From positions 1,596,996-1,660,995 of the forward strand of contig NZ_AP014564.1 of assembly GCF_002369955.1 (NCBI RefSeq): 64,000 nt of DNA. Reading direction: 5' to 3'. Below, piece after piece: positions 11,726 through 63,756 of this stretch (position 1 is its first letter; each line of letters begins with the position of its first letter). The DNA is from Ichthyobacterium seriolicida. GTDB lineage: Bacteria; Bacteroidota; Bacteroidia; Flavobacteriales; Ichthyobacteriaceae. Both the position numbers and the translations under genes were made by a program. The notes under the pieces were generated by a model. That model was given only the letters and a program-made list of their open reading frames with translations, searched no databases and had not been told where the DNA came from.

Positions 11726-11759
11726 AACTATTATATTAGTTGATATAACTGTATGCTCA

Positions 11760-11789: not shown

Positions 11790-11812
11790 CGTAGTAGTTA
11801 TATACTATAAAA

Positions 11813-11847: not shown

Positions 11848-11884
11848 AAGTGACTTGTTAATAGGATCTTAATTTATCTTGAAC

Positions 11885-14800: not shown

Positions 14801-15493
14801 TGTTTCTTGATCTGTTAATTTATTATCATGTTCAGTTAACTCCTTTTCCTGTTCTTTTATCTTGGTCTCAAATTTATTTACTCTTTCATAAAGTTCTTTT
14901 CCCTTTTTAGCTGATAAAACTTTTCCAACCTCTCCATCAAAATTATCAGCAATATCTATTTTGTCTAATTTTCTTTCTTCCAAATCTCTCCCTTTATTAG
15001 CTGATAGAGCAGATGATACAACTCTAGATCTCAAATTATCTATAACATTTGTTTTTGGGCTTTTTGCAGCATAAAATGCGTAAGGAACACTAAGTATTTC
15101 ACTCTTTTTTATAAGAGCATTACTATAATTATTTTTGCCAGTCAGATCTATCTCTGATTTAATGTAATATGAATACTCAGACCATGATAAATCAGACAAT
15201 TTTGAACCTGAGAATCCTTGAGATCTAATACCTTCTCCTACCTTTAGAGTAGCTAAGCCATTCTTATCTGTTTTAATATTCCAATGAACTTCAGAGTATA
15301 CAACATCTTCTATCTTTCCATTTAAAGAATATATAGAAATACGAATACTAACTGTAGATTCTCTTAATAGTTTATCATCTTTCCTAATCACTAACTGATA
15401 ACTCAACTTATTAGGAAAATTATTAGAAAGAGAATCTATACTTAAAAATGAGAGAAATATAAATCCAAAATAAAAAACAATTCTTATAGTCAT
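11885..15493 (-). CDS. Fibre gene B: long collagen-like secreted protein with S74 domain
   Basis: This 1202-residue family member has a signal peptide, an N-domain to VPYAFYAA (~139), two LSAxxG repeats, a short coiled coil (~205-262) and LSAHQG. A collagen tract of ~145 triplets follows (~276-712), then LSAKQG, a beta-roll-like head (about 745-900) with [22 protein letters not shown] and NTVLIGN motifs, the S74 domain from S-D-K-R-I-K (~973) and a C-terminal coiled coil ending KEDIKVLIK. Two near-identical collagen blocks (13621-13955 and 14152-14489) lie exactly 531 bp (59 x 9) apart, a product of in-register duplication. The head matches gene C. A trimeric secreted fibre is inferred. Confidence 0.86.
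13621..14489 (-). repeat. 531-bp-period direct repeat in the collagen tract of gene B
   Basis: Two long near-identical blocks start at 13621 and 14152 (same GAGGACCTTGCTTGCC start). The 531-bp spacing is 59 Gly-X-Y units, so both the reading frame and the triplet register are preserved. Confidence 0.8.
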
Positions 15494-15527
15494 AACTATT
15501 ACATTAGTCGATATAACTGTATGCTCA

Positions 15528-15557
15528 CGAAGTTAAAGCTTTTTTAGAATATGCTAA
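15528..15557 (-). promoter_or_regulatory. Predicted promoter of fibre gene B (class i)
   Basis: On the minus strand, TTAG (15557-15554), an 18-bp spacer and TAACTTCG (15535-15528) lie 35 bp upstream of the ATG. The sequence is nearly identical to the gene A promoter. Confidence 0.55.
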
Positions 15558-15580
15558 CGTAGTAGTTATGTACTATAAAA

Positions 15581-15615
15581 GGTTCAGTAAAAAATTGATA
15601 GTGATTATTTTTACC
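15581..15615 (-). promoter_or_regulatory. Conserved 35-bp inverted-repeat block upstream of gene B
   Basis: Same block as at 11813-11847: GGTAAAAAT ... TTTTTTACTGAACC in gene direction, ahead of the class i promoter. Confidence 0.45.
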
Positions 15616-17685
15616 AAGTGACCTGCTAATAGGATCTTAATTTATCTTGAACTTATTTTATCAAAACTTTGGTGTCATCCTTATTGAGGATGTTTGATTT
15701 GTTTAGTAATTTAATTAAGTTATCTAACTTCTGTTTAGTAGAAGATAATTCTTTCTTGGTAGAAATAAGCTTTTCATTGGTAGTAGAAAGTTGTTTAGTA
15801 AGAATACTATTCTCTTTTTCTAAGCCCACAACACGATCATAAACAGCTTGAGTAGCTGAAATATTTAAAGTGGTAAGTCCATCGTAATCTACTGAGCGTA
15901 AATCGTCTACCTCCTTACCGTAGATGAAAACCTTATTCTTAGAATCTAAAACCTCTTCTGTTAAAAATCTATTAGAATCTATAACTCTCTTTACTTTTAC
16001 GTATCTCTCTCCATCATTCTCTATAATAACCTTAATGAGATCTCCAACAGAAAAATCGTGAACCTTGTTTGTCGTGATAGTACTTCCTTCATTAGAAATG
16101 CTGATTGATTTAGCTAATTCATACACATTAGGGATAGTACCTTTATTTATATTTATGACCTCTGGAACTATACTTTCTACCTGCTGAGCTATTACTTTTT
16201 TAAATGGCCTAACGCCACTTTCTATACTATCTATCATCGTATAATCTGTAATTTCTATATTCAAGAGTTTCTTTAAATCTTCTCTTTTATCTGAGATACC
16301 TTTTATACTCTTGATACGTTTGTCTGATACAGCTAAAAAACTTCCATCTGTTAAAATAGATTCACTTGCATACAGAGAAACTTTAGTATCAATAAATTTA
16401 CTTGTTTGAACCAAATAATATTTATGCTTAATGTTATTACTAAAATAAGTTCCACTAAAATGATTGCTGGTTCCTCCATAGATATTCAACATTCCAATAC
16501 TTTTTCGTGTTGCTGAATCACTATTATTTATTAAAACTCTCCCCTTTAAGTAAGTTACTTCAGTGTTGTCATTCCCAATAAGTACTGTATTATTACCTTT
16601 ACCTTTATTAAGTACATCTCCAGTAGATGCTTAACTATCTCATTAGAAGAACTACTGTTTTCTTTAGGAGCTGATCCATGCCCTATAAAAATAGAGCGAT
16701 TTAATTGATTAGCATAAGCGGCTGCAGTATGCCCAATAGCTACAGTATTAGATACCCTTGCAGCTGCCTGAAATACACGAGAGCCTATAGCTACATTGCT
16801 ATTAGAACCATTACTAATACTAGATAAAGTATTATCCCCAATAGCTACATTATGAGTCGTACTAAATTTACCGTCATTGCCTGAATTGATACCTAAAAAC
16901 ATATTTCTAGTTCCTATAGAATTAGAAACTATTTCATCATATCTATCTTTATTACCAGACCAACACGTTATAATATTACCATTACCATTACCATTACCCC
17001 CTTCTACAAAAAGACGTGATCTTTTTATATCGTCATTTAAAACCTTACCCTGTTTAGCTGATAAGGCACTTGTTGTATCCCCAGAAGTTAAATCATTTAT
17101 AATTTTCTCTGGCCCTGGAGCTCCTGCTGGACCCGCTGGGCCTGGAGGACCTTGTGGACCTTTAGCGCCTGGAGCTCCTGCTAGACCCGCTGGACCTGGT
17201 AAACCTTGTGGACCTGGTAAACCTTGTGGACCTGGTAAACCTGATTCACCATCCTTGCCATCTGCACCTTTTGGTCCTGCCAGGCCTGGATTACCTGGTA
17301 ACCCAGGTAATCCAGGTTCACCATCTTTACCTGCAGGACCTTGCTCTCCTTTTGGTCCTGGGTCTCCCTTTACTCCTTGAGGGCCTATCGCTCCTGCTGG
17401 GCCTGTCTCACCACGAAGCCCTTGTGGTCCTTGAATCCCTGCTGGACCTCTTTCTCCTCTTTCTCCATCTTTACCTGCAAGACCAGCTGGGCCTACTGGC
17501 CCTGGAATACCTTGTTCCCCTTTTGGCCCTGGGTCTCCTGGGTTACCATCTTTACCATCAGCACCTGGAAGGCCTTTATCACCTTGTGGCCCTTGAGGGC
17601 CTTTTTCACCTTTTTCACCTTTAGGCCCTGCTGGACCTGCTACACCTACTGGCCCTTGAGACCCTGCTGGACCTGCTGGACCCAT

Positions 17686-18990
17686 TGGACCAGTCAGACC
17701 TGCTGCGCCATCTTTACCTGGGATCCCAGGGGCTCCCGTTGGGCCTATAGGACCTGTAGCTCCCGTATTACCTATTGGTCCTTGGTCTCCTTTTGGTCCT
17801 TGAGCACCAACGTCTCCTTTTTCACCATCTTTACCATTAGTGCCATCAGCACCTGGAGGGCCTGATGGTCCTGGAGGGCCTGATGGTCCTGGAGGCCCTG
17901 TTTCGCCCCTATCACCTTGTATTCCTGTTGCACCTGGGGCACCCTGTGGACCTCTAGGCCCTTGAGGGCCTTGTTTTCCTGCTGCTCCATCTCTACCAGC
18001 AGGACCGACTGCCCCTGTAGCGCCTGGGGGTCCTGCCGGGCCAGTTTCCCCCGCTACTCCATCTTCACCTTTTAGCCCTTGAGGCCCTTTTTCACCTTTT
18101 TCACCTTTAGGCCCTGCTACACCTACTGGCCCTTGAGACCCTGCTGGACCTGGGGCTCCTGTTTCACCAGCGTCTCCTTTTGGTCCTTGATCTCCTTGAT
18201 CACCAGCGTCTCCTTTTTCCCCTTTTGGACCTGCTGGTCCTGTGTCTCCTTGCTCTCCTTTTGGTCCTTGAGGACCTGATGGTCCTGCTTCACCTTTTGC
18301 TCCTGAGTCTCCCTTTACTCCTTGAGGGCCTATTGCTCCTGCTAGACCTGCTGGACCCATTGGACCAGTCAGACCTGCTGCGCCATCTTTACCTGGAGTC
18401 CCAGGGGCTCCCGTTGGCCCTGATGGACCTGGATCACCTTTTGGTCCTGGGTCTCCTTTTGGTCCTTGAGCACCAACGTCTCCTTTTTCACCAGCTGGTC
18501 CTCTTTCACCTTGCTCTCCTCTAACGCCTGTTGGACCTGGGGCTCCTGTTTCACCTTTTTCACCTTTTGGTCCTTGTTCACCTTGGGGACCTCTTTCTCC
18601 TCTTTCTCCATTTTTGCCATCAGCACCTGCTGGGCCTGATAGTCCTGGAGGCCCTGTTTCGCCCCTATCACCTTGTATTCCTGTTGCACCTGGGGCACCC
18701 TGTGGACCTCTAGGCCCTTGAGGGCCTTGTTTTCCTGCTGCTCCATCTCTACCAGTAGGACCGACTGCCCCTGTAGCGCCTGGGGGCCCTGCCGGGCCGG
18801 TTTCCCCCGCTACTCCATCTTCACCTTTTAGCCCTTGAGGACCTTTTTCACCTTGAGACCCTGCTGGACCTGCTGGACCTGCTGGACCTGCTGGACCTGC
18901 TGGACCTGCTGGACCTGCTGGACCTGCTGGACCTGCTGGACCCATTGGACCAGTCAGACCTGCTGCGCCATCTTTACCTGGGGTCCCAGG
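17686..18990 (-). repeat. 675- and 585-bp-period direct repeats in the collagen tract of gene C
   Basis: The segment beginning TGGACCAGTCAGACCTGCTG occurs at 17686, 18361 and 18946. The spacings are 675 (75 x 9) and 585 (65 x 9) bp, both whole numbers of Gly-X-Y units. Confidence 0.8.
18861..18941 (-). repeat. 9-bp microsatellite coding (Gly-Pro-Ala)9 in gene C
   Basis: Nine consecutive perfect or near-perfect copies of the 9-bp unit CTGCTGGAC (plus strand) code an uninterrupted Gly-Pro-Ala run. The tract is slippage-prone, and any length change keeps frame and collagen register. Confidence 0.88.
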
Positions 18991-20135
18991 GGCTCCCGTT
19001 GGCCCTGATGGACCTGGATCACCTTTTGGTCCTGGGTCTCCTTTTGGTCCTTGAGCACCAACGTCTCCTTTTTCACCAGATGGACCTGCTGGACCTGTGT
19101 CTCCTTGCTCTCCTTTTGGTCCTTGAGGACCTGATGGTCCTGCTTCACCTTTTGCTCCTGAGTCTCCCTTTACTCCTTGAGGGCCTCTTTCTGCCTTTTT
19201 GTCTATCAATTTCTTGAGTTCATACCCTTGATGCGCTGATAAAACTTTTTTAGGGTCATGAGTGTCGGTGTTTAAATCATTAACAATATCAGATATACTT
19301 AATTTAGTATCTATTTCTGCCTTAAGGACTTTTCCTTGTGCTGCTGATAATACTTTTGTAGCATCATCAGTGGTTAAATTATTTATTATTTGATTATTAT
19401 CAATCTTGTTTTTTAACTCTGCCTTCTTAGCGGTTAACTCCTTTTCCTGTTTTTTTATCTTAGTCTCAGATTTATCTACCCTTTCATAAAGCTCCTTGCC
19501 TCTATCAGCTGATAAAACTTTACCTTTACCTCCATTAAAATTATCAGCAATATCTATTTTGTCTAATTTTCTTTCTTCTAAATCTCTCCCTTTATTAGCT
19601 GATAAAGCAGCTGATACAACTCTAGAACTCAAATTATCTATAACATTTGTTTTTGGGCTATCTGCTGCATAAAATGCATAAGGGACACTAAATAATTGAC
19701 TCTTTTTTATAAGAGCATTACTATAATTATTTTTGCCAGTCAAATCTAACTCTGATTTAATGTAATATGAATCTTCAGACCATGATAAATCAGACAATTT
19801 TGAATCTGAAAACCCTTGAGATCTAATACCTTCTCCTATATTTAGAGTAGCTAAACCATTTTTATCTGTTTTAACACTCCAATGAACTTCAGAGTATACA
19901 ACATCTTCTATCTTTCCATTTAAAGAATATATAGAAATACGAATACTAACTGTAGATTCTCTTAATAGTTTATCATCTTTCCTAATAACTAACTGATAAC
20001 TCAACTTATTAGGAAAGTTTTTAGAAATGGAATCTACACTCAGAAACAGCAGAAATATAAATCCAAAGTAAAACACAAGCCTTCTTTTCATGTTATCTAA
20101 AAATATTGTCAATAGATGCTACGGTAATAAAATTA

Positions 20136-20166
20136 CAAAATTACAAAATTCTCACATTTATACTAA
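20136..20166 (-). promoter_or_regulatory. Predicted promoter of fibre gene C (class iii)
   Basis: On the minus strand, TTAG (20166-20163), a 19-bp spacer and TAATTTTG (20143-20136) give a perfect TAnnTTTG -7 box 45 bp upstream of the ATG at 20091. A TAAATGTGAGAATTTTG-like spacer is shared with gene D and loosely with gene E. Confidence 0.6.
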
Positions 20167-20476
20167 CAACATAGCAGCTATAAATAATAGCGGTTTGAGT
20201 AAAAAAAATCAGATAGAGATATTTTTGCTAAAAAAATAAACGATTTAAACCTGAGTTTGATTAATAGTTTACTTAATTAAAGTACTTGAAAGCATTCAAT
20301 TAACTGGGATTAAAGAAATTTGTGTTTGTGATAAATAGTATATTTTAGTACAAGAATTATTAAATTTCGACTAAATTAGCCTCATAAGCATAAAAGAGCC
20401 CAAAACTAAAGGGGTATTTCCTTAAATCCGAATAAAATCAAAGGATTCAAGTGTTTTTATTAATCTAACTCGGGTT

Positions 20477-20740
20477 ATTATTATAACGAGCTGGACAAAG
20501 AACCTAAATTTAGAAATCAGGAAAATTATTTACACCACAAACTTGATTGAAAATCTCAATATAAAAATCAGAAACTATACCAAAAATAAATTGTTGTTTC
20601 CAACTGCTGATGCTGTTGTAAAATATACTTTTTTAGCTCTTGGGAAGGCTACAAAAAAATGGTCTAAGCCAATAATACTGAATTGGGAAATAATAACGAA
20701 CCAATTTTTAACTATTCTTGACAAAAGAGCTCGACTATGA
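20477..20740 (+). pseudogene. Truncated IS256-family (Mutator-type) transposase C-terminus, copy 2
   Basis: The plus-strand frame from 20477 reads IITSWTKNLNLEIRKIIYTT, continues NLIENLNIKIRNYTKN, then ALGKATKKWSKPI and ends after LDKRARL. This matches the C-terminal end of IS256-family transposases (EIRKxIYTTNAIESLNxxIRKxTK ... KKWxxPIxNW). The N-terminal and catalytic parts are missing, so it is a dead fragment. It sits between fibre genes C and D, in the 3' flank of D. A shorter homologue is at 8190-8515. The rest of the gap (20170-20476) holds the upstream part of the shared flank and nothing else recognisable. Confidence 0.78.
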
Positions 20741-20805
20741 ATAAAAACAAAAAATATGTCATTTTTTATTTACATACTTTAAGCGATAATCTCTAAAATG
20801 AATAT

Positions 20806-23800
20806 CTATTCTTTTATCAAAACTTTGATATCTTTCTTATCTAGGATATTTGATTTACTTAATACTTTAATTAAAATATCTAATTTCTTTTGAGTATTAG
20901 AAAGCTTTTCATTTGTAACAGAAAGTTCTTTTTTAAGAAAAATATTTTCTCTCTTGATATCGTTATTCTCCTTTTTAATAATACCACTTTCTTTTTCTAA
21001 GTCCACAACACGATCATAAACTGCTTGAGTAGCTGAAATATTTAAAGTGGTAAGTCCATCGTAATCTACTGAGCGTAAATCGTCTACCTCCTTACCGTAA
21101 ATGAAAACCTTATTTTTAGAATCTAAAACCTCTTCTATTAAAAACCTATTAGGATCTATAACAGCTTTTACTTTTACTTCTTTGGTTCCTTTGGTTCCCT
21201 CATTTTCTATAATAACCTTAATGAGATCTCCAACAGAAAAATTGTGAACCTTGTTTATCGTGATAATACTTCCTTCATTAGAGACGCTAATTGATTTAGC
21301 TAACTCATATACATTAGGAATAACTCCTTTATTTATATCTATAACTTCTGGAACTATATTTTCTACCTGCTGAGCTATTACCTTTTTAAATGACCTAACG
21401 CCACTTTCTATACTATCTATCATAGTATAATCTGTAATCTCTATACCCAAGAGTTTCTTTAAATCTTCTCTTTTATCTGAGATACCTTTTATACTCTTTA
21501 CACGTTTATCTGATGTAGCTATAAATTTTCCATATGTCATAATACTTCCTTTAGAATTCAAAGAAATTCGAGCTTTGTTTCGATCTTTTATGGAGATACA
21601 ATCAGTACTGCCATCTTCAAAATATGATCCAGATGTTGGCTCTTTAGCAATCTCGTCTTCTAGAAGAACTGTACCTCTTAAATATGTTTTTAGAGTCTTA
21701 TCATTTCCTAACACTACTGTATTAGCTCCTTTACCTTGAGCGCTACTTCCTATAGCTATCTCATTGCTACTGGATATGCTAGAAAGCTTGGAGCCAATCC
21801 CTAAAAGCATATTTTCTGTGCCAGTTAAAGTACTTTCCTCCTCTTCATCAGAGAGCGTTATGATATTTTCTCCAGTATCTGTCTTTATAAATGGTGTTTT
21901 TTTTATTTTTTCATTTAGGATTTTCCCCTGTTTTGCGGATAAGGCACTTGTGCTATCATCAGTGATTAAATCATCTATAAGTTTCACTGGCCCAGGAGGC
22001 CCTGCTGGACCTATGGCTCCTGGTTCACCCCTATCACCTTTTGCGCCTGTTGGACCTGGTTTGCCATCTGGTCCTTGTTCTCCTTTTGGCCCTTTCGGGC
22101 CTATTTCACCTGGTATACCTGCCTCACCTCGCCTTCCTCTAGGGCCTGGTAGACCTTGTGGACCTGATAAACCTGGATCACCATCTTTACCAGGCTTACC
22201 TTGTTTTCCTTCTGCCCCTGGGGCTCCTTGTGGTCCTGTTGCGCCTGCTGGGCCTTGTGGCCCTTGAATCCCTGGAACACCATCTTCGCCCTTTTCACCT
22301 CTGATACCTTGAGGACCTTCTGCCCCTTGTTCTCCTCTTTCTCCTGCTGGGCCTGTCTCACCACGAAGCCCTTGTGGTCCTTGAATCCCCGCTGGGCCTT
22401 GATCACCTGTTGCGCCTTTTTCCCCTGGTTTTCCTTCTACTCCTTGAGCTCCTTGAGCACCTGCTGGACCTCTTTCTCCATCTTTACCTGCAAGACCAGC
22501 TGGGCCTACTGGACCTGGAATACCTTGTTCCCCTTTTGGCCCTGGGTCTCCTTTTTCTCCATTTTTGCCATCAGCACCTGCTGGGCCTCGTTCACCATTT
22601 TCACCTCTTGCACCATCTCTACCTGCTGCTCCTGGATTGCCTTGATCTCCCTTTTCCCCTTTTTCACCATCTTTACCATTAGTGCCATCAGCACCTGGAG
22701 GCCCTGTTTCGCCTCTATCACCTTGTATTCCTGTTGCACCTGGGGCACCCTGTGGACCTCTAGGCCCTTGAGGGCCTTGCTCACCTCTGTCTCCTTTGTT
22801 TCCTGCTGGACCTTGTGGCCCTATGGCTCCTGCTATACCATCGTTTCCTTTTTCACCTTTAGGACCTTCTGGACCTCTTTCACCTTGCTCTCCTCTAACG
22901 CCTGTTGGACCTGGGGCTCCTGTTTCACCTTGCTCTCCTTTTGGTCCTTGTTCACCTTGGGGACCTCTTTCTCCTCTTTCTCCATCTTTACCTGCTTCGC
23001 CCCTATCACCTTTTGCCCCATCGGCTCCTTTTTCTCCTTGTGGTCCTATGTCTCCTTTGTCTCCATTTTTGCCATCAGCACCTGCTGGGCCTCGTTCACC
23101 ATTTTCACCTCTTGCACCATCTCTACCATCTCTACCTGCTGCTCCTGGATTGCCTTGATCTCCCTTTTCCCCTTTTTCACCATCTTTACCATTAGTGCCA
23201 TCAGCACCTGGAGGCCCTGTTTCGCCTCTATCACCTTGTATTCCTGTTGCACCTGGGGCACCCTGTGGACCTCTAGGCCCTTGAGGGCCTTGCTCACCTC
23301 TGTCTCCTTTGTTTCCTGCTGGACCTTGTGGCCCTATGGCTCCTGCTATACCATCGTTTCCTTTTTCACCTTTAGGACCTTCTGGACCTCTTTCACCTTG
23401 CTCTCCTCTAACGCCTGTTGGACCTGGGGCTCCTGTTTCACCTTTTTCACCTTTTGGTCCTTGTTCACCTTGGGGACCTCTTTCTCCTCTTTCTCCTCTT
23501 TCTCCATCTTTACCTGCTTCGCCCCTATCACCTTTTGCCCCATCGGCTCCTTTTTCTCCTTGTGGTCCTATGTCTCCTTTGTCTCCATTTTTGCCATCAA
23601 CACCTGCTGGGCCTCGTTCACCATTTTCACCTCTTGCACCATCTCTACCATCTCTACCTGCTGCTCCTGGATTGCCTTGATCTCCCTTTTCCCCTTTTTC
23701 ACCATCTTTACCATTGGTGCCATCAGCACCTGGAGGGCCTGGATCACCATCTTTACCAGGCTTGCCTTGTTTCCCTTCTGCCCCTGGGGCTCCTTGTGGT

Positions 23801-24990
23801 CCTGTTGCGCCTGCTGGGCCTTGTGGCCCTTGAATCCCTGGAACACCATCTTCGCCCTTTTCGCCTCTGATACCTTGAGGACCTTCTGCCCCTGGGGCTC
23901 CCTTTACCCCTTGTTCTCCTCTTTCTCCTGCTGGGCCGGTTTCACCACGAAGCCCTTGTGGGCCTTGAATCCCTGCTGGACCTCTTTCTCCATCTTTACC
24001 TGCTTCGCCCCTATCACCTTTTGCCCCATCGGCTCCTTTTTCTCCTTGTGGTCCTATGTCTCCTTTTTCTCCATTTTTACCATCAGCACCTGCTGGGCCT
24101 GTATCACCTTGAGGACCTCTTTCTACCTTTCTGTCTATCAATTTCTTGAGTTCATGCCCTTGACGCGCTGATAAAACTTTTTTAGGGTCATAAGTTGAAA
24201 GATCTAGGTTGTCTATAACTTCTAGTTTCGCCTCCTCTAACTCTTTAATTCTTGTTCCGTGGGTTTCTAATTTAGTATCCTGTTTTTCTATTTTGCTTTC
24301 TAACTCTTTCTTCTGTTGAGATATTTGTTCATCATGAATAGTTAACCTTTCAGAAAAACCCTTCTCATATTTATTTACCCTTTCATAGAGTTCTTTCCCC
24401 TTATTAGCTGATAAAGCTTTACCTTTACCTCCATGAAAATTATCAGCAATATTTATTTTGTCTAATTTTTTCTTTTCTAAAATCCTTCCTTGATTAGCAG
24501 ATAGAGCAGCTGATACAACTCTAGAACTCAAATTATCTATAACATCTATTTTTGGACTATCCGCTGCATAAAATGCATAAGGGACACTAAGTATTTGACT
24601 CTTTTTTATAAGAGCATTTCTATAATCATTTTTGCCAGTCAGATCTATCTCTGATTTAATGTAATATGAATACTCAGACCATGATAAATCAGACAATTTT
24701 GAACCTGAGAATCCTTGAGATCTAATACCTTCTCCTATCTTTAGAGTAGCTAAGCCATTCTTATCTGTTTTAATATTCCAATGAACTTCAGAGTATACAA
24801 CATCTTCTATCTTTCCATTTAAAGAATATATAGAAATACGAATACTAACTGTAGATTCTTTTAATAATTTATCATCTTTCCTAATCACTAACTGATAACT
24901 CAACTTATCAGGAAAATTATTAGAAAGAGAATCTATACTTAAAAATGAGAGAAATATAAATCCAAAATAAAACACGAACCTTCTTTTCAT
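20806..24990 (-). CDS. Fibre gene D: longest collagen tract, S74 domain
   Basis: This 1394-residue family member has a signal peptide, an N-domain to [14 protein letters not shown] and LSANKG repeats, a coiled coil (~205-275) and LSARQG. A collagen tract of about 237 triplets (~290-1002, the longest in the window) follows, then LSAKQG, a very short head ([27 protein letters not shown]), the S74 domain from S-D-K-R-V-K (~1160) and a C-terminal coil ending KDIKVLIKE. The collagen tract has large in-register duplications (504 and 522 bp). The X-Y positions are rich in KGE, KGD, ERG and PQG, which provides charge pairing as in other bacterial collagens without hydroxyproline. Its 3' flank resembles that of gene A. 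Confidence 0.86.
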   Translation of the reverse strand: MKRRFVFYFGFIFLSFLSIDSLSNNFPDKLSYQLVIRKDDKLLKESTVSIRISIYSLNGKIEDVVYSEVHWNIKTDKNGLATLKIGEGIRSQGFSGSKLSDLSWSEYSYYIKSEIDLTGKNDYRNALIKKSQILSVPYAFYAADSPKIDVIDNLSSRVVSAALSANQGRILEKKKLDKINIADNFHGGKGKALSANKGKELYERVNKYEKGFSERLTIHDEQISQQKKELESKIEKQDTKLETHGTRIKELEEAKLEVIDNLDLSTYDPKKVLSARQGHELKKLIDRKVERGPQGDTGPAGADGKNGEKGDIGPQGEKGADGAKGDRGEAGKDGERGPAGIQGPQGLRGETGPAGERGEQGVKGAPGAEGPQGIRGEKGEDGVPGIQGPQGPAGATGPQGAPGAEGKQGKPGKDGDPGPPGADGTNGKDGEKGEKGDQGNPGAAGRDGRDGARGENGERGPAGVDGKNGDKGDIGPQGEKGADGAKGDRGEAGKDGERGERGERGPQGEQGPKGEKGETGAPGPTGVRGEQGERGPEGPKGEKGNDGIAGAIGPQGPAGNKGDRGEQGPQGPRGPQGAPGATGIQGDRGETGPPGADGTNGKDGEKGEKGDQGNPGAAGRDGRDGARGENGERGPAGADGKNGDKGDIGPQGEKGADGAKGDRGEAGKDGERGERGPQGEQGPKGEQGETGAPGPTGVRGEQGERGPEGPKGEKGNDGIAGAIGPQGPAGNKGDRGEQGPQGPRGPQGAPGATGIQGDRGETGPPGADGTNGKDGEKGEKGDQGNPGAAGRDGARGENGERGPAGADGKNGEKGDPGPKGEQGIPGPVGPAGLAGKDGERGPAGAQGAQGVEGKPGEKGATGDQGPAGIQGPQGLRGETGPAGERGEQGAEGPQGIRGEKGEDGVPGIQGPQGPAGATGPQGAPGAEGKQGKPGKDGDPGLSGPQGLPGPRGRRGEAGIPGEIGPKGPKGEQGPDGKPGPTGAKGDRGEPGAIGPAGPPGPVKLIDDLITDDSTSALSAKQGKILNEKIKKTPFIKTDTGENIITLSDEEEESTLTGTENMLLGIGSKLSSISSSNEIAIGSSAQGKGANTVVLGNDKTLKTYLRGTVLLEDEIAKEPTSGSYFEDGSTDCISIKDRNKARISLNSKGSIMTYGKFIATSDKRVKSIKGISDKREDLKKLLGIEITDYTMIDSIESGVRSFKKVIAQQVENIVPEVIDINKGVIPNVYELAKSISVSNEGSIITINKVHNFSVGDLIKVIIENEGTKGTKEVKVKAVIDPNRFLIEEVLDSKNKVFIYGKEVDDLRSVDYDGLTTLNISATQAVYDRVVDLEKESGIIKKENNDIKRENIFLKKELSVTNEKLSNTQKKLDILIKVLSKSNILDKKDIKVLIKE
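22560..23860 (-). repeat. 504/522-bp tandem duplication in the collagen tract of gene D
   Basis: The segment GCCATCAgCACCTGCTGGGC occurs at 22567, 23071 and 23593 with long flanking identity. Periods of 504 (56 x 9) and 522 (58 x 9) bp preserve the Gly-X-Y register. The 18-bp difference is two extra triplet units. Confidence 0.85.
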
Positions 24991-25030
24991 GTGATCTGAA
25001 AAATATTTGGGAAAACTTAAACTAGAGCTG

Positions 25031-52786: not shown

Positions 52787-52830
52787 GTTCAAGATAAATT
52801 AAGATCATAGGTTCGATTAACAAATCACTT

Positions 52831-52865
52831 GGTAAAAATAATCAACATCAAATTTTTACTGAACC
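52831..52865 (+). promoter_or_regulatory. Conserved 35-bp inverted-repeat block upstream of gene H
   Basis: GGTAAAAAT ... ATTTTTACTGAACC, with stem GTAAAAAT / ATTTTTAC. This is the block found before genes A, B, I and K. The site TTAA at 52817-52820, where genes I and K carry a MITE, is empty here. Confidence 0.45.
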
Positions 52866-52952: not shown

Positions 52953-55900
52953 ATGAATAGAAGAATTATTTTTTATTTTGGATTTATATTTCTCTCATTT
53001 CTAAGTTTAGATTCTGTTTCTAATAATTTTCCTGATAAGTTGAGTTATCAGTTTGTGATTAGGAAGGAAAATCAACTCTTAAAAGAGTCTACAGTTAGTA
53101 TTCGTATTTCTATATATTCTTTAAATGGAAATATAGAAGATGTTGTATACTCTGAAATTCATTGGAGTATTAAAACAGATAAAAATGGTTTAGCCTCTTT
53201 AAAAGTTGGAGAAGGGATTAAATCTGGAAATTTTGTTATGTCAAAATTATCTGATTTAGAATGGGCAAAAAACTCTTATTATATCAAATTTGAGATTGAT
53301 TTGGATAGCAGAAACAATTATGATAAAGCTCTTATAACAAAGAGTCAAATTCTCAGTGTCCCTTATGCATTTTATGCAGGGGATAGTCCAAAAATAACCG
53401 TTGTAGATAATCTGAGTTCTAGTTCTGTAACATCTGCTCTATCAGCCAATAAGGGAAGAGATTTAGAAAATAGAAAATTAGACAAAATAGATATTGCTGA
53501 TAATTTTAATGGAGGTGAAGGTAAAGTTTTATCAGCTAATAAGGGGAAAGAACTTTATGAAAGGGTAAATGAATATAAAAAGGATTTTTCTGAAAGGTTA
53601 ACTTTTCAGGATGAACAAATATCTAAACAAAAGGAAGATTTAGTTACTCAAAAAGAGAATATAGCTCAACAAAAGGAAGAGCTAGAAAGCGAGATAGCTG
53701 AGCAGGATAAAGTTCTAGAAAATCAGAAAGAGAGACAAAGTGAAACTATTTCTGAAATTGAAGAATTGAAGAAATCAAGATTACAAGTCATTGATGATCT
53801 GAGTATTTTGAGTCATGATGCTAAAAAAGTTTTATCAGCGCATCAAGGATATAAGCTTAAGCAGATGATAGACGCAAAGGAAGAAATAGGGCTAGTAGGG
53901 CCAGTAGGTCTGGCAGGAAAAAAAGGAGACAAAGGAGACAGAGGAGATCGAGGCCCAGCAGGACCAGTTGGTCCTACAGGAGCGCAAGGGCCACAAGGTG
54001 AAACAGGGACAACGGGAGCGCAAGGACCACAAGGTGAAACAGGGACAACAGGAGCGCAAGGACCACAAGGTGAAAGAGGGCTTCAAGGTCCAGCAGGACC
54101 AGATGGTAAAACAGGAACAGTAGGTGCTAATGGCGTTCCAGGGAAAGTAGGAGACACTGGACTAGCGGGAGCTGTTGGTGAGCAAGGGCCAAAAGGAGAC
54201 GATGGTAAAGATGGGCCAAAAGGAGACATGGGTCTAAAGGGTCCAGCAGGCGCAAAAGGCCCTGATGGTACTAAGGGCCTAAAGGGACCTAAAGGGGTAA
54301 AAGGAGACAAAGGTGAACAAGGTCCTGCTGGTAAAGATGGTCCTATAGGAGCGCAAGGACCAGTTGGTAAAACAGGAACAACGGGAGCGCAAGGACCACA
54401 AGGTGAAGATGGTCCTATAGGAGCGCAAGGACCACAAGGTGAAAGAGGACCTCAAGGTGAAAGAGGGCTTCAAGGTCCAGCAGGACCAGTTGGTAAAACA
54501 GGAACAGCAGGTGCTAATGGCGCTCCAGGGAAAGTAGGAGACTCTGGACCAGCGGGAGCTGTTGGTGTGCGAGGGCCAAAAGGAGACGATGGTAAAGATG
54601 GGCCAGAAGGAGACAGAGGTTTAGAGGGGCCAGCAGGCGCAAAAGGCCCTGATGGTGCTAAGGGCCTAAAGGGACCTAAAGGGGTAAAAGGAGACAAAGG
54701 TGAACAAGGTCCTGCTGGTAAAGATGGTGATCAAGGCCCAAAAGGGACGGATGGCGCTCCAGGTAAAGATGGTCCACGTGGTAAAAGAGGCCTACAAGGG
54801 CCAGAAGGAACACCAGGCAAACCAGGTAACCCTGGTAAAAAAGGAGAAAGAGGTCCAAAAGGACCAAAAGGACCTCAAGGGCTTCATGGTAAACAAGGTC
54901 TAGCAGGCGCTAGAGGACAGCGAGGTGAAACAGGAGCAGTAGGGCCAAAAGGAAAAGATGGTCTACGAGGGCCAGTAGGTCTGGCAGGAGCTCAAGGTGA
55001 AACAGGAGCAGTAGGGCCAAAAGGTCTAGAAGGAGAACAAGGGCCAGAAGGTCTAAAAGGAGAGCAAGGGCCAGAAGGTCTAAAAGGAGAGCAAGGCGAT
55101 ACAGGACCTGATGGTAGAAATGGTATAGATGGCGCCACAGGTACTCCAGGACCACTGGGACCAGCAGGAGACAAAGGTAAACAAGGCCCTATGGGACCAA
55201 CAGGTATTCGAGGAAACACAGGCCCACAAGGGCCTCCAGGGCCAGTGAAAATTAAAGATGAGTTAAATTCTGATGACAATACAAGTGCCTTATCAGCTAA
55301 ACAGGGTAAGGTTTTAGCTGGGATTATAAAAGGTCTATTTATAAAAACAACGACTGGTGAAAGTATTATAACACTTTCTGATACAGATGATCCTAATTCT
55401 CTAGAATCTATTCAAGGAGGTTCAAATAACATGTTTTTAGGTTTTGATTCAGGCAGGAAAGGAAGTGGAAATATAGGTTTAGGAGAAGGAGCTTTGCGTA
55501 ATATTACTGAGAGTGCGGTTGACAATATTTTTATTGGTCATGCGGCTGGTGAAAATAATGCAGGGTCAAAGAATATAGGTATAGGTAATGGTTCACTTAA
55601 AAATAATTATAATGGAAGTGAGACTGTTGCTATCGGTTATATGGCTCCTTATATAGCAAAACCCTCAAGTTCAATAAGATACTCTTATAATAAGAGTATC
55701 TATATAGGTAATTTATGTGAATCTGGAACTACTAGTTCTAGTACTAACGAAATAGTTATTGGATCTAAGGCAACAGGTATGGGTACTGATAGAGTAGTGT
55801 TAGGAAATGATAGGACTAGTAAAACATATTTAAAGGGTACAGTTTTTTTATCAAAACCTCTTGAGAATACCCTTTTAAGAGGAGATAGAAGAATGTTCAT

Positions 55901-56708
55901 ATATGACCCTAAAAATAATTGGTTTCATCGTAGTTATAATTACAAATTTACCTGGGAAGGTGACCCAATTCATGAGTGGATTTCTTTATATGCTGATGGT
56001 TCTATTCTAACAAAATCTGGGTTTATAGCCGTATCAGATAAGCGTATTAAGAGTATAAAAGGTATATCAGACAGAAAAGAAGATTTAAAGAAACTTCTGA
56101 ATATAGAGATTACAGATTATACTATGATAGACAGCATAGAAAGCGGCGTTAGGCCATTTAAAAAAGTAATAGCTCAGCAAGTAGAAAGCATACTGCCACA
56201 GGTTATAAATATAAATAAAGGTATTATCCCTAATGTATATGAATTAGCTAAATCAGTTAAAATTTCTAATGAAGGAAGTGCTTTTACAACAAACAAGGCT
56301 CATGATTTTTCTATTGGAGATATTGTTAAGATTATAATAGAAAATGAAGGAACCAAAGAGGTAAAAGTAAAAGCTGTTATAGATCCTAATACGTTCTTAA
56401 TAGAAGAGGTTTTAGATTCTAATGATAAGGTTTTTATTTATGGTAAAGAAGTAGACAACATGCGATCAGTAGATTACGATGGTTTTACCACTTTAAATAT
56501 TTCAGCTACCCAAGCAATTTATGAAGAGCTTGTTTCTACTAAAAAAAAACTTTCTACTACTGAGCAAAAGCTTTCTACTAATGAAAAAGAACTTTCTGTT
56601 GCTAAAGAAAAGCTTTCTAATACTGAAAATAAATTAGATACTCTAATAAAGGCATTAAGTAAATCAAATACCCTTAGTAAGGAAGATATAAAAGTTTTGA
56701 TAAAGTAA
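52953..56708 (+). CDS. Fibre gene H: long collagen-like fibre with S74 domain
   Basis: This 1251-residue family member has a signal peptide and an N-domain to VPYAFYAG, with diverged opening residues ([12 protein letters not shown]). LSANKG is repeated twice, then a coiled coil (~205-290), LSAHQG, a collagen tract of ~150 triplets (~313-764), LSAKQG and a head related to gene G ([37 protein letters not shown]). The S74 domain starts at S-D-K-R-I-K (~1027) and a C-terminal coil follows. The collagen tract contains a 387-bp (43 x 9) tandem duplication. From the S74 start to the stop the DNA is nearly identical to gene G, whereas the N-domain differs, again suggesting segmental exchange. Confidence 0.86.
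54060..54740 (+). repeat. 387-bp-period direct repeat in the collagen tract of gene H
   Basis: CTTCAAGGTCCAGCAGGACC begins at 54081 and 54468. The two copies code parallel GANGxPGKVGD ... [16 protein letters not shown] stretches. The period equals 43 triplet units. Confidence 0.82.
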
Positions 56709-56735
56709 GTTCAAGATAAATTAAGATCCTATTAA

Positions 56736-56945
56736 CCCAGATTATCCATGGTTTGTATTTCAATTTAAATGTAAAGTGTTATTTTTAAAGGGGTTCAACC
56801 AAAAATAACCACTTTAGATATAGCCCAAAAATGAGGAATAAAAATATATCATTTATAACTCTGAGTTCATCAATGACTACTTATAAATACTGGATAAAGC
56901 GATATATTCTATCCGAAAAATTCATACGACTATGAATAATCTGGG
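56736..56945. mobile_element. 210-bp MITE-like element, copy 1
   Basis: The element starts CCCAGATTATCCATGG and ends CTATGAATAATCTGGG, so the ends form imperfect terminal inverted repeats of about 16 bp. It is flanked on both sides by TTAA (56732-56735 and 56946-56949). The site between genes B and A has the same flanks with a single TTAA (11858-11861) and no element, which shows insertion with a TTAA target duplication. The inside holds a further hairpin (AAAGTGTTATTTTT / AAAAATAACCACTTT) and no ORF. TTAA duplications fit IS1380/piggyBac-like transposases, but no such gene is in the window. Confidence 0.82.
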
Positions 56946-56959
56946 TTAACAAGTCACTT

Positions 56960-56994
56960 GGTAAAAATAATCACCATCAAATTTTTACTAAACC
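56960..56994 (+). promoter_or_regulatory. Conserved 35-bp inverted-repeat block upstream of gene I
   Basis: GGTAAAAAT ... ATTTTTACTAAACC, directly downstream of the MITE; same block as before A, B, H and K. Confidence 0.45.
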
Positions 56995-57017
56995 TTTTAT
57001 TTTATATAACTACTACG

Positions 57018-57047
57018 TTAGCATATTCTAAAAAAGCTTTAATTTCG
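57018..57047 (+). promoter_or_regulatory. Predicted promoter of fibre gene I (class i)
   Basis: TTAG (57018-57021), an 18-bp spacer and TAATTTCG (57040-57047). The distance to the ATG is 55 bp, about 20 bp longer than in H because a TATATCAACTAATATAATAGT-like segment is duplicated just before the start. Confidence 0.55.
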
Positions 57048-57102
57048 TGAGCATATAGTTATATCAACTAATATAATAGTTATATCAACTAATATAGTAG
57101 TT

Positions 57103-59133
57103 ATGAATAGAAGAATTGTTTTTTATTTTGGATTTATATTTCTCTCATTTCTAAGTTTAGATTCTGTTTCTAATAATTTTCCTGATAAGTTGAGTTATCA
57201 GTTAGTGATTAGGAAAGATGATAAATTATTAAGAGAAGCTACAGTTAGTATTCGCATTTCTATATATTCTTTAAATGGAAAGATAGAAAATGTTGTATAC
57301 TCTGAAGCTCATTTTAATCTTAAAACAGATAAGAACGGCTTAGCTTCTCTGAAAATAGGAGAAGGGATTAGAGCTAAAGGATTTTCGGATTTAAGTTTAT
57401 CTAGTTTAGAATGGTCAAAAAACTCTTATTACATCAAATCAGAGATTGATTTGTCTGGCAAAAACAATTATGACAAAGCTCTTGTTAATAAAAGTGAAAT
57501 GCTAAGTGTCCCTTATGCGTTTTATGCAGCAGATGCTCCAAAAGCAATTGTTATAAACAATTTAGAATCTAACTCTATAGCAATTCCTCTATCAGCTAAT
57601 CAAGGGAGAATTTTAAAGGAGATGATAGAAAAAAAAGATAAAGGAGACACTGGCCCTGCTGGCCCTGCTGGACCTCGTGGGTCAAGAGGGGCAACAGGGC
57701 TACCAGGTGCAGCAGGTGCAAAAGGTGAAACAGGTGCAGCAGGGCCTCGAGGTGAAGCAGGGCCAAAAGGTAACGATGGTGAACGAGGCCCTATAGGGGA
57801 AACAGGTCCTCCAGGACCAACAGGGCCAGAAGGAAAGCGAGGCCCAGCAGGTAAAAATGGTGTAGATGGCAAGGATGGTGCTCCAGGAGCAGCAGGCCCA
57901 GCAGGAAAAGAAGGGCCAGCAGGAGCAACAGGTGAACAAGGAGTAGCAGGGCCACAAGGTCCTCCAGGGCCAGAAAAAATTATTGATAATTTAGATTCTG
58001 ATGAAACAACAAGTGCCTTATCAGCTAAGCAGGGTAAGGTTTTAGCTGAGATGATAAAAAGTAAATCACCATTTATAAAAACAGATACTGGGGAAAATAT
58101 CATAACGTTCTCTGATGAAGAGGAGAAAAGTAAATCAAGTGGCACAAAAAATATGCTTTTAGGTATTGGCTCCAAGTCTTCTAGCGAATCACCTAGCAAT
58201 GAGATAGCTATAGGAAGTGACGCTCAAGGTAAGGGGTCTAATACAGTAGTTTTAGGAAACGACATAACTAAAATAACATATTTAAAAGGTCAAGTTGTTC
58301 TAGAAGGATATATTACAGAGTCAAAAAATGGAACATATTTTGACAGCAAAACAACAAGCAAGGCGACGTTTTTCGTGGAAAAGTCTAGAGCCTTAGATGG
58401 GACTAGTAGCGCAATATCGCATGACATTTCTCTGTATGCTAAGCATAGTATTGCAACAGAGAAAAAATTTTTAGCTACATCAGATAAACGTGTTAAGAGT
58501 ATAAAGGGGATCTCAGATAAAAGAGAAGATTTAAAAAAGCTCCTAAATATAGAGATTACAGATTACACTATGATAGACAGTATAGAAAGCGGGGTTAAAC
58601 CGTTTAAAAAGGTAATAGCTCAGCAAATAGAAAATATAGTTCCAGAAGTTATAGATATAAATAAAGGTATTATCCCTAATGTGTATGAATTAGCTAAATC
58701 AGTTAAGGTTTCCATTGAAGGAAGTGCTATTACAACAAACAAGGCTCATGATTTTTCTATTGGAGATATTGTTAAGATTATAATAGAAAATGAAGGAACC
58801 AAAGAGGTAAAAGTAAAAGCTGTTATAGGTCCTAATACGTTTTTAATAGAAGAAGTTTTAGATTCTAATAAGAAGGTTTTTATTTATGGTAAAAAAGTAG
58901 ACGACATGCGATCAGTAGATTACGATGGTCTTACCACTTTAAATATTTCAGCTACTCAAGCAGTTTACGAAGAACTTATTTCTACTAAGAAAAAACTTTC
59001 TGATAATAAAAAAGAACTTTCTGTTACTAAGGAAAAGCTTTCTAGTACTCAAAAGAAATTAGATACTCTAATAAAGGCATTAAGTAAATCAAATGCTCTT
59101 AGCAAGGAAGATATAAAAGTTTTGATAAAGTAA
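57103..59133 (+). CDS. Fibre gene I: smallest member, no central coiled coil
   Basis: This 676-residue family member has a signal peptide, an N-domain to VPYAFYAA and a single LSANQG repeat that runs directly into the collagen tract (~180-291, 37 triplets: [16 protein letters not shown]...). LSAKQG, a short head ([31 protein letters not shown]), the S74 domain from S-D-K-R-V-K (~459) and a C-terminal coil ending KEDIKVLIK follow. It lacks the second LSAxxG repeat and the coiled-coil stalk of its paralogues, so it shows the minimal architecture of the family. The head and LSAKQG segment are close to genes E and F. Confidence 0.86.
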
Positions 59134-59180
59134 GTTCAAAATAAATTAAGATCCTAGGCTCGACATATAGAGCTATTATA

Positions 59181-59213
59181 TTAGCATATTTAAAAGAAGA
59201 AGTGTTAATTTAG
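59181..59213 (+). promoter_or_regulatory. Predicted promoter of fibre gene J (class ii)
   Basis: TTAG (59181-59184), a 21-bp spacer and TAATTTAG (59206-59213; one mismatch to TAnnTTTG) lie 41 bp before the ATG. Confidence 0.5.
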
Positions 59214-59254
59214 TCGGTTATGTATCTATAACAATTTGTTTTAATCATAAAACT

Positions 59255-62200
59255 ATGAATAGAAAAATTGCTTTTTACTTTGGATTTATATTTTTCTCAT
59301 TTTTAAGTATCTATTCTTTTTCTAATAATTTTCCTGATAAATTGAGTTATCAGTTAGTGATTAGGAAAGATGATAAATTATTAAAAGAATCTACAGTTAG
59401 TATTCGTATTTCTATATATTCTTTAAATGGAAAGATAGAAGATGTTGTATACTCTGAAATTCATTGGAGTGTTAAAACAGATAAAAATGGTTTATCTACT
59501 CTAGATATAGGAGAAGGGATTAGATCTCAAGCATTCTCAGGTTCAAAATTGTCTGACTTAGAATGGTCAAAAAACTCTTATTACATTAAATCAGAGATAG
59601 ATCTAACTGGCAAAAATAATTATAGTAATGCTCTTATAAAAAAGAGTCAAATTCTTAGTGTCCCTTATGCATTTTATGCAGCAGATAGTCCAAAAATAGA
59701 TATTCAAAATCATTTAAGTTCTAGAAGTGCAACCAATGCGTTATCGGCTAATCAAGGAAGAATTTTAGAAGAAAGAAAATTAGACAAAATAGATATTGCT
59801 GATAATTTTAATGGAGAGGTTGGTAAAGTTTTATCAGCTAAAAAGGGGAAAGAACTTTATGAAAGAGTAAATGAACATGAAACCAAGATAGAAAAACACA
59901 AAGAAGAATTAACTCAACAGGAGAAAGATCTAACAGAAAAGATAGCTGCTCAGAAGAAAGAGTTAACAAAAAAGATAGATGATGAGAAGAAAGAATTAGA
60001 AAAAAAGATAGAAACCGAAAAGAAGTATTTAGAAAATAAGATAGACGATAATAAAACAGCCTTAACAACTCAGGGCGACAAGATATCTGCTCAGGAAACC
60101 AAGATAGATGCTCAGAAGGTAGCTTTAGAAGGCAAGATATTTGCTCAGAAGACAGCTTTAGAAAATACGATAGCTGAAGAGAAGAAAACTTTAGAAGCTA
60201 AGATAGATGCTCAGGGGACTAAATTAGGAACCCACGAAACAATAATTAAAAAGTTAGATACAGATTTAGATGCTCAGAAGACAGATTTAGATGCTCAAAG
60301 AAAAAAGATAGAAACCCAGCAAAAAGCTTTAGAAGCTAAGATAGATGCTCAGGGGACTAAATTAGGAACCCACGAAACAATAATTAAAAAGTTAGATACA
60401 GATTTAGATGCTCAGAAGACAGATTTAGATGCTCAAAGAAAAAAGATAGAAAACCAGGAAAAAGAAATTAAAGATTTAAAGGATGGAGAGTTACAAGTCA
60501 TTAATGATCTAAAGACTTCAACTCATGAAGTTAAAAAAGTTTTATCAGCGTATCAAGGAAAAGTCCTTAAGGATATGATAGAAGCTCATAAGGCAGATTT
60601 AACAGAAAAGATAGATGATAATAAGAAAGTGTTAACTAAACAGAAAGAAAAGGTAGATGAACATGAAGGTAAATTAGCAAAATACGAAGAAAAACTTAAA
60701 AATTTAGAGAAGGAGAAACTAGAAGGTGTAAACACACTAGACGTTTCAACTCATGATGCTAAAAAAGTTTTATCAGCGCATCAAGGACATAAACTTAATG
60801 AAAAAATAGCCAAAAAATTAAATATATCTGATATTGTAAATGATTTAAACACAGACTCTCATAACCCTAAAAAAGTTTTAGCAGCGCATCAAGGATATCA
60901 GCTTAATCAAATGATAAAAACTCAGGAGACAGCTTTAGAAGTTAAGATAGAAAATCAGAAGACAGCCTTAGAAAACAAGATATCTGCTCAGGAAACCAAG
61001 ATAACTAATCAGGATACTAAATTAGGAACCCACGAAAAAAAAATTACAGAGTTAGAGAATGGGCAACTACAAGTTGTAAATGACCTAGAACTTTCAGATC
61101 ATGATGAAAAAAAAGTTTTATCAGCGTATCAAGGATATCAGCTTAAGCAGATGATAGACAAAAAAGCAGAAAAGGGAGAGAAAGGAGATCAAGGCGAGAT
61201 AGGACCTGCTGGTAAAGAAGGCCCCGCTGGAACCCCAGGCGCTACAGGGGCAGTAGGTCTAACTGGTCCCTCTGGTAAAAATGGTACTAACGGGAAAGAC
61301 GGCATCCAAGGTCCTCGAGGAGCAGATGGAGCAAGAGGCCCAGCAGGTAAAAATGGTAAAGATGGCAAGGATGGTTCCCCAGGCCCCCCTGGGGAACAAG
61401 GTCCTCCAGGGCCAGCAGAAATTATTGATAATTTAGAATCTGATAAGACAACAAGTGCCTTATCAGCTAAGCAGGGGAAAATACTAGAGGTCAAAAAATT
61501 AAATAAATCTGATATAGAAGATAATTTAACCAGTAATGATGCTAATAAGCCCTTATCAGCTAATCAGGGGAAGGAACTAGAGAACAAAAAAATAGATAAA
61601 ACTGATATTGCAACTAATTTAACCACTGATGATGATAAAAAGGTCTTATCAGCTAAGCAGGGGAAAATACTAGAGGTCAAAAAAATAGACAAAACTGATA
61701 TTGTAAATAATTTAACCAGTGATGCTACTAATAAGCCCTTATCGGCTAAGCAGGGAAAAATACTAGATAAAAAAATAAAAGAAGCACATACGCTTATAAA
61801 AACAGATACTCACAATAATATTATAACTAAATGGTCTGGTAAGGGTAGTGATGGAACTAGTGGAGGTAGTGGTCAAAAAAATACTTTTTTAGGTATAAGA
61901 TCTGGTAACGAAGTAGTTAGCTCAGGTAGCAACACAGCTGTTGGTTATGAATCCCTAAAAGATGTCACCTCTGGAAGTAATAACACTTCAGTTGGTGAAT
62001 CTTCTCTCCTAAAAAATACTACTGGGATGCATAATACTTCAATTGGCAATAGTTCTCTAAAAGAGAATACTAGTGGCTCATATAACACTTCTTTTGGCTC
62101 ATTCTCTCTTAGAAATAATACTGCCGATTTTAACACTTCATTTGGCTATAATTCTCTCCAAAATAATACTAAAGGCAAATATAATACTTCTGTTGGTGCG

Positions 62201-63505
62201 AGTTCTCTCCAAAACAATAATAATGGCTCACATAATACTTCAATTGGCATAAGTTCTCTCCAAAGCAATAATAGTGGCTCCTATAATACTTCAGTTGGCA
62301 CGAATTCTCTCCAAAAGAATACTGAGGGCTCCTTTAATACTTCAGTTGGCATGAATTCTCTCCAAAAGAATACTAAGGGCAAACAAAATACTTCTGTTGG
62401 CTCTTTTTCTCTCCAAGTAAATACTGAGGGCTCCTTTAATATTTCTGTTGGCACGAATTCTCTCCGAGATAATACTACTGGCTCCTGTAATACTTCAGTT
62501 GGCACGAATTCTCTCCGATATAATACTACTGGCTCCTATAATACTTTGATAGGGACACGTTCTTTATATAACATGGTTAAAGGAAATAATAATATATCTA
62601 TAGGATGTCATGCTGGCAATGAAGATAATTCAAAACATAAATTCACGGAATCAAATAATTCTATTTTTATAGGGAATAATACTAAGGCGTTAGCAAATAA
62701 GAGTACTAACGAGATAGTTATAGGGCATAGTGCGGTAGGAAATGGAAATAATACTGTAACCATTGGTAATAGTATTACTAAAACTTACTTAGGAGGAACA
62801 GTTCATGCAAATGGCGTACAACTCACTTCTGATAAACGTATCAAGAGCATAATAGGCATATCAGATAAAGAATCAGACCTTAAAAAACTTTTAGATATAG
62901 AAATCACGGATTACACTATGAGAGATACTAATAAACTGGGTAATCAGCATTTTAAGAAGGTAATAGCTCAGCAGATAGAAAGTATAGTTCCAAATATTGT
63001 ACAAAAGAATAGTGGTATAATTCCTAGTGTCTACGAATCAACTAAATCAATAGAGACTACAAATGATACTACATCAATTACTACAAAAAAGGCACATGGA
63101 TTTTCTAAGGGTGATACAGTAAAACTAATTTTGGATGATGGCAAAGAGATTTTTGTCAAAGTAAAAGAGATAAAAAGCACCAATACTTTTGTAGTAAAGT
63201 TAGGAAATGAAATATCTCCAAATAGCGTGTTTGTATACGGTAAGGAGGTAGACGATTTACGATCAGTAGATTACGATGGTCTTACCACTTTAAATATTTC
63301 AGCTACTCAAGCAATTTATGAAGAGCTTGTTTCTACTAAGAAAAAACTTTCTGCCAATAAAAAAGAACTTTCTGCTAATAAAAAAGAACTTTCTGTTACT
63401 AAGGAAAAGCTTTCTAGTACTCAAAAGAAATTAGATACTCTAATAAAGGCATTAAGTAAATCAAATGCTCTTAGCAAAGAAGATATAAAAGTTTTGATAA
63501 AATAA
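59255..63505 (+). CDS. Fibre gene J: coiled-coil stalk, short collagen, long beta-roll head, S74 domain
   Basis: This 1416-residue member is the most elaborate. After the signal peptide and N-domain (to VPYAFYAA) it has about 400 residues of coiled coil (~200-620), interrupted by LSAYQG, LSAHQG and LAAHQG repeats and containing a 46-residue tandem duplication. A short collagen tract (~638-719, 27 triplets) is followed by four LSAxQGK repeats in a row. The head has about 14 units of 17 residues (~890-1125, GxxNTSVGxxSLxxNT), which resembles YadA-type beta rolls. The S74 domain begins at S-D-K-R-I-K (~1191) and differs most from its paralogues ([39 protein letters not shown]), looking closest to the ancestral form. 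The end, [20 protein letters not shown] plus coil, is standard. Confidence 0.86.
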   Translation: MNRKIAFYFGFIFFSFLSIYSFSNNFPDKLSYQLVIRKDDKLLKESTVSIRISIYSLNGKIEDVVYSEIHWSVKTDKNGLSTLDIGEGIRSQAFSGSKLSDLEWSKNSYYIKSEIDLTGKNNYSNALIKKSQILSVPYAFYAADSPKIDIQNHLSSRSATNALSANQGRILEERKLDKIDIADNFNGEVGKVLSAKKGKELYERVNEHETKIEKHKEELTQQEKDLTEKIAAQKKELTKKIDDEKKELEKKIETEKKYLENKIDDNKTALTTQGDKISAQETKIDAQKVALEGKIFAQKTALENTIAEEKKTLEAKIDAQGTKLGTHETIIKKLDTDLDAQKTDLDAQRKKIETQQKALEAKIDAQGTKLGTHETIIKKLDTDLDAQKTDLDAQRKKIENQEKEIKDLKDGELQVINDLKTSTHEVKKVLSAYQGKVLKDMIEAHKADLTEKIDDNKKVLTKQKEKVDEHEGKLAKYEEKLKNLEKEKLEGVNTLDVSTHDAKKVLSAHQGHKLNEKIAKKLNISDIVNDLNTDSHNPKKVLAAHQGYQLNQMIKTQETALEVKIENQKTALENKISAQETKITNQDTKLGTHEKKITELENGQLQVVNDLELSDHDEKKVLSAYQGYQLKQMIDKKAEKGEKGDQGEIGPAGKEGPAGTPGATGAVGLTGPSGKNGTNGKDGIQGPRGADGARGPAGKNGKDGKDGSPGPPGEQGPPGPAEIIDNLESDKTTSALSAKQGKILEVKKLNKSDIEDNLTSNDANKPLSANQGKELENKKIDKTDIATNLTTDDDKKVLSAKQGKILEVKKIDKTDIVNNLTSDATNKPLSAKQGKILDKKIKEAHTLIKTDTHNNIITKWSGKGSDGTSGGSGQKNTFLGIRSGNEVVSSGSNTAVGYESLKDVTSGSNNTSVGESSLLKNTTGMHNTSIGNSSLKENTSGSYNTSFGSFSLRNNTADFNTSFGYNSLQNNTKGKYNTSVGASSLQNNNNGSHNTSIGISSLQSNNSGSYNTSVGTNSLQKNTEGSFNTSVGMNSLQKNTKGKQNTSVGSFSLQVNTEGSFNISVGTNSLRDNTTGSCNTSVGTNSLRYNTTGSYNTLIGTRSLYNMVKGNNNISIGCHAGNEDNSKHKFTESNNSIFIGNNTKALANKSTNEIVIGHSAVGNGNNTVTIGNSITKTYLGGTVHANGVQLTSDKRIKSIIGISDKESDLKKLLDIEITDYTMRDTNKLGNQHFKKVIAQQIESIVPNIVQKNSGIIPSVYESTKSIETTNDTTSITTKKAHGFSKGDTVKLILDDGKEIFVKVKEIKSTNTFVVKLGNEISPNSVFVYGKEVDDLRSVDYDGLTTLNISATQAIYEELVSTKKKLSANKKELSANKKELSVTKEKLSSTQKKLDTLIKALSKSNALSKEDIKVLIK
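60191..60452 (+). repeat. 138-bp tandem duplication in the coiled coil of gene J
   Basis: TTAGAAGCTAAGATAGATGC starts at 60191 and again at 60329, with near-complete identity for ~125 bases. Each copy codes 46 residues beginning LEAKIDAQGTKLGTHETIIK. Unlike the collagen repeats this is not a whole number of heptads. Confidence 0.88.
61925..62632 (+). repeat. 51-bp degenerate repeat (about 14 units) forming the head of gene J
   Basis: About 14 units of 17 residues follow the pattern GxxNTSVGxxSLxxNT. Middle units such as GSYNTSVGTNSLQKNT are nearly identical to each other, indicating recent expansion. Gene A has only five such units, and its first two are nearly identical to those of J. Confidence 0.9.
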
Positions 63506-63532
63506 GTTCAAGATAAATTAAGATCCTATTAA

Positions 63533-63742
63533 CCTGGATTATTCATGGTTTGTATTTCAATTTAACTATAAAGTGTTATTTTTAAAGGGTTTCAACCAAA
63601 AATAACCACTTTAGATATAGCCCAAAAATGAGGAATAAAAATATACCATTTATAACTCTGAGTTCATCAATGACTACTTATAAATACTGGATAAAGCGAT
63701 AGATTATATCCAAAAAATTCATACGACTATGAATAATCTGGG
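63533..63742. mobile_element. 210-bp MITE-like element, copy 2
   Basis: This is a second copy of the element at 56736-56945, also exactly 210 bp and flanked by TTAA (63529-63532 and 63743-63746). Its left end is mutated (CCTGGATTATTCATGG). It sits at the same relative position, between the conserved 3' flank of one fibre gene and the 35-bp block of the next, so it may have spread with the duplicated gene rather than by a new transposition. Confidence 0.8.
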
Positions 63743-63756
63743 TTAACAAGTCACTT

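Follow-up and report, generated by a model that had tools for sequence, protein, structure and literature searches.

A 210-bp element with inverted ends lies twice between fibre genes in the 64,000-nucleotide stretch of the Ichthyobacterium seriolicida genome that we analysed (the window). This raises the question of whether the element is mobile, what would move it and whether its position between the genes serves a function. I. seriolicida JBKA-6 is a fish pathogen placed in its own family within the Flavobacteriales (PMC5331501), and the genome is a single 1,921,407-bp contig.

Window copies and empty fibre-gene junctions

A reading made from the sequence alone (the sequence-only reading) had described two 210-bp MITEs with inverted ends and TTAA flanks. 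We found them at 56732–56949 (copy 1) and 63529–63746 (copy 2), both on the plus strand and each comprising 210 bp plus TTAA on each side. Copy 1 starts 24 nt downstream of the fibre gene at 52953–56708, counted from its stop codon. The inverted ends of both elements are ~20 bp long; in copy 1 the left terminal inverted repeat (TIR) is located at 56736–56755 (plus strand) and the right one at 56926–56945 (minus strand). For copy 2, the right end given previously (ATAATCTGGG) was correct, whereas the left end is CCTGGATTAT and not CCCAGATTAT.

The two elements are 95.4% identical and the intergenic DNA downstream of them is 96.1% identical. In addition, an extra copy of a 21-bp repeat before the next gene is common to the two filled sites only. 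Since identity in the flanks is as high as in the elements and the extra repeat is present in both sites alone, the simplest history is a single insertion that was later duplicated together with the fibre-gene cassette, and we count the pair as one event. The filled sites had been taken as evidence of insertion. The TTAA duplication at these sites stands, but the two sites are not independent, so that mobility has to be proved by the empty paralogues and the remainder of the genome, and not by copy 2.

Paralogous fibre-like genes are clustered at 8531–25000 and 39737–63505 of the window, and their junctions contain blocks that are near-identical from one to another. The five fibre-like genes that were tested carry collagen repeats and phage-fibre repeats, with a weak match to the S74 chaperone in some.

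The preserved empty site reported in the sequence-only reading is indeed present. A paralogous fibre-gene junction at 11846–11865 (minus strand) has a single TTAA and reads CCTATTAACAAGTCACTTGG, which is exactly the sequence obtained by joining the flanks of the filled site; the chance level for such a match was 0.02 matches in shuffled windows at ≤ 3 mismatches. Two diverged empty paralogues can be added. At 15614–15633 (minus strand) the target is now TTAG, and at 52813–52832 (plus strand) a single TTAA is retained with diverged neighbouring bases.

Empty counterparts were also detected for copies elsewhere in the genome. When the flanks of the MITE copy at 169815 (genome coordinates here and below, unless the window is named) were joined and the genome was searched, uninterrupted paralogues with a single TTAA were recovered at 1882802 and 989896 (~95%). 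The copy at 1324336 has a clean single-TTAA empty paralogue at 1046011. Paralogous empty sites also exist for the MITE sites at 655831, 989162 and 1883317; these we consider supportive only, because the target in the empty paralogues differs (TTAC or TTAG). Judged against the empty sites, insertion of the MITE duplicates TTAA. Two MITE copies that adjoin IS fragments (1030129 and 1237622) were considered as proof of this duplication and set aside, as they are not clean pairs of insertion and empty site.

A dispersed family among genes

Two subfamily members served as queries in a search of the genome, and together with a subsequent local census this recovered 39 full-length MITE copies as well as partial ones. 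TTAA is found on both sides in 31 of them, against a background TTAA frequency of about 1.2% in the genome segments examined and 0.8% in the window. In most of the remaining copies the bases on one side have changed, and in one or two the boundary was misplaced. The copies lie mostly in unrelated flanks. They form four clusters, within which copies diverge on average by 5.6 to 10.8%; the window copies belong to the tightest of these, at 5.6%. After the flanks had been joined, 36 of the 39 sites were outside open frames of ≥ 80 codons. The 210-bp MITE has no coding capacity, and 92.7% of the cells in its ~20-bp TIRs are paired over 38 copies.

Two functional roles can be considered for an element in this position. 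We see a slim chance that the MITE and its relatives, as dispersed homologous segments bounded by TTAA, drive the duplication and reshuffling of fibre cassettes or alter transcription between them. The other role, put forward in the sequence-only reading, is that of a transcriptional insulator or terminator: the MITE would have been co-opted, and its position, after the stop of one fibre gene and ahead of the start of the following one, would be functional. The predicted transcript fold is strong (RNA −52.1 kcal/mol, z −4.8), an effect mostly of the inverted ends. However, we detected no site resembling an intrinsic terminator in 56600–57200 of the window, the terminal pairs were no more concerted in their changes than shuffled columns, and 1 of 25 predicted consensus pairs covaried. 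Three equivalent fibre junctions have no MITE, and the copies in the genome adjoin open frames in varied orientations. We regard the proposed insulator or terminator role as very unlikely. Across 38 copies there was no conserved or covarying internal structure, and an RNA structure under selection was rejected on the absence of covariation.

An IS1380-family partner and the origin of the MITE

Elements of the IS1380 family are about 1.6 kb long, have ends starting with CC and generate a 4-bp target duplication. The genome contains 20 full-length copies of a ~1.6-kb IS (1601 and 1600 bp) that agrees with the family in length, ends and 4-bp duplication and encodes an IS1380-type DDE transposase. 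This 432-aa protein matched both NCBIfam NF033539 (IS1380 family transposase; E 1.4e-89, 300.6 bits, cut-off 180) and PF13701 (E 3e-113, 377 bits, cut-off 34.7), and many loci for PF13701 (IS1380-type transposase) are present in the genome, intact and decayed. The IS ends are CCCAGATTATTCATAG / CCCGCATTATTCATAG. Two lineages can be distinguished by the left end (CCCAGATTATTCATAGTTACCC and CCTGGATTATTCATGGTTATAT), and the right end CCCGCATTATTCATAGTCATAC is found in nearly all copies. TTAA is present on both sides of 18 of the 20. Relatives in other Bacteroidota, with 52–78% protein identity, have ends of the same CCC...ATTCAT kind, and TTAA or TTAG duplications were seen at 13 of the 15 loci of such related IS that were examined.

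Several full-length IS copies are identical at different sites, which shows that the IS transposed recently. Recent movement in this sense applies to the IS; the MITE copies of the window subfamily are, by the divergence given above, 5.6% apart on average.

The sequence-only reading had proposed IS1380-type transposition, and the 20 IS copies with matching ends in the same genome bear this out. It had also named the result that would speak against mobility: a single insertion copied by segmental duplication, with neither other copies nor a related transposase in the genome. Segmental duplication of one insertion does describe the window pair, but further copies and the transposase are both present.

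The MITE has its outer ends in common with this IS, and the similarity continues inwards. In the copies compared, the left 110–130 bp aligned to the IS left end at 73–85%, and this homology (~123 bp) runs through the leader and the transposase start codon into the first codons (ATGAGGAATAAAAA). In copy 1 this part spans 56732–56854 of the window (plus strand), has 77% identity to both IS lineages and takes in the IS leader as well as the start codon of the transposase (ATGAGGAATAAA), which lies at 56831. The right ~25 bp of the MITE matches the IS right end. For the middle ~70 bp we found no convincing source in the IS, the best match being 13 bp.

Homology that extends past the TIRs into the start codon is what would be expected of a deletion derivative. 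We therefore consider it highly probable that the 210-bp element is a type-I non-autonomous MITE, derived from an IS1380-family element by internal deletion and inserted at TTAA, by inference in trans, by the IS transposase. As the left part shows no more than about 80% identity and the middle ~70 bp lacks a convincing match, the exact parent was probably related to the present IS copies but diverged from them or since lost, and belonged to a slightly different IS1380 lineage.

In the mechanism that we propose, IS1380 transposase produced elsewhere in the genome would recognise the ends common to IS and MITE and would insert the MITE into TTAA, duplicating that tetranucleotide. The reaction would be of the cut-and-paste type and possibly piggyBac-like. 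From its parent the MITE would have kept about 25 bp at the right and, at the left, the first 123 bp, in which the end, the leader and the start codon of the transposase are included. One such insertion, between two fibre genes, was subsequently copied along with the fibre cassette.

The absence of the central ~70 bp from the IS would suit a type-II MITE, that is, an independent palindrome whose ends converged on or captured those of IS1380, but homology that starts at the left end and proceeds for ~123 bp, beyond the ~20-bp ends and into the start codon and first codons, leaves very little probability for such an origin. That the sequence is an immobile local repeat of the fibre cluster, spread by segmental duplication, with the "empty site" a deletion, would agree with the long flanks that were duplicated with the window pair, but is refuted by the 37 further full-length copies dispersed in distinct flanks, most with TTAA on both sides, by the independent empty sites and by the partner IS with the same ends.

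Longer non-autonomous IS1380 derivatives were observed at 1391451–1392076 (about 626 bp) and 1382233–1382764. In these the left ~54 bp is joined to the right ~560 bp, and one of them has a further deletion. Related copies are present at 1365967 and 1373144, and their left flanks are similar. In the IS1380 copies at 1029018–1030639 and 1362077–1364795 the break falls on one and the same internal TTAA (IS position ~1110); one adjoins a MITE and the other another IS copy.

Relation to known systems and a second MITE-like family

With IS1380-family IS (NF033539 / PF13701; many Bacteroidota) the MITE has in common the outer ends (CCC...ATTATTCAT) and the TTAA duplication, and it differs from them in having no transposase, a length of 210 bp instead of 1601 bp and a ~70-bp middle without a convincing match in the IS. 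A parallel in kind is found in type-I bacterial MITEs such as MITEAba12, for which ISAba12 is the proposed parent (PMC6382973). Like the present MITE, such elements are short, gene-less and multi-copy, and have inverted ends as in a resident parent IS; here, unlike in MITEAba12, the parent is of the IS1380 family and the target is TTAA.

Target choice also recalls the piggyBac transposons of eukaryotes, which insert at TTAA and duplicate it (PMC7351741), and IS1380 transposases have served as outgroup in trees of piggyBac (PMC10813416). The TTAA target duplication of the piggyBac superfamily is thus found for the MITE as well, whereas the element is bacterial and the transposase falls in IS1380 models and is not piggyBac-type. 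We found no sequence match between the transposase and a solved piggyBac transposase.

No similar sequence was present in the plasmid collection, and Rfam gave no match in the window. Among 39 other genomes of the order we found a single match, of 30 bp, which falls on the part of the MITE surrounding the transposase start codon. The IS left end had no DNA match in 295 other genomes of the order, in a search of low sensitivity in which two candidates were scored per genome. Since no mention of IS1380, MITE and TTAA together was found in the open-access papers that were searched, this MITE family may be undescribed; the kind of mobile DNA that it represents is ordinary. Within one finished genome it brings together a documented MITE family, a resident IS1380 partner that was active recently and naturally occurring empty sites, and with this MITE/IS pair TTAA-specific bacterial transposition in trans becomes directly testable.

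At 20249–20475 the window also contains a member of another MITE-like family, which is unrelated to the first and has a length of ~228 bp and the ends ACCTGAGTTCGATTAA. Its ends gave 118 matches in the genome (≤ 1 mismatch), compared with 0 for the reversed pattern, and these often occur as convergent pairs ~228 bp apart. The same ends are carried by an IS of ~1.0 kb at the loci L154 (genome 979249–980262) and L150 (50807–51819), which encodes an IS982-family transposase (NF033520, E 8e-83) and is likely the autonomous partner of this second family.
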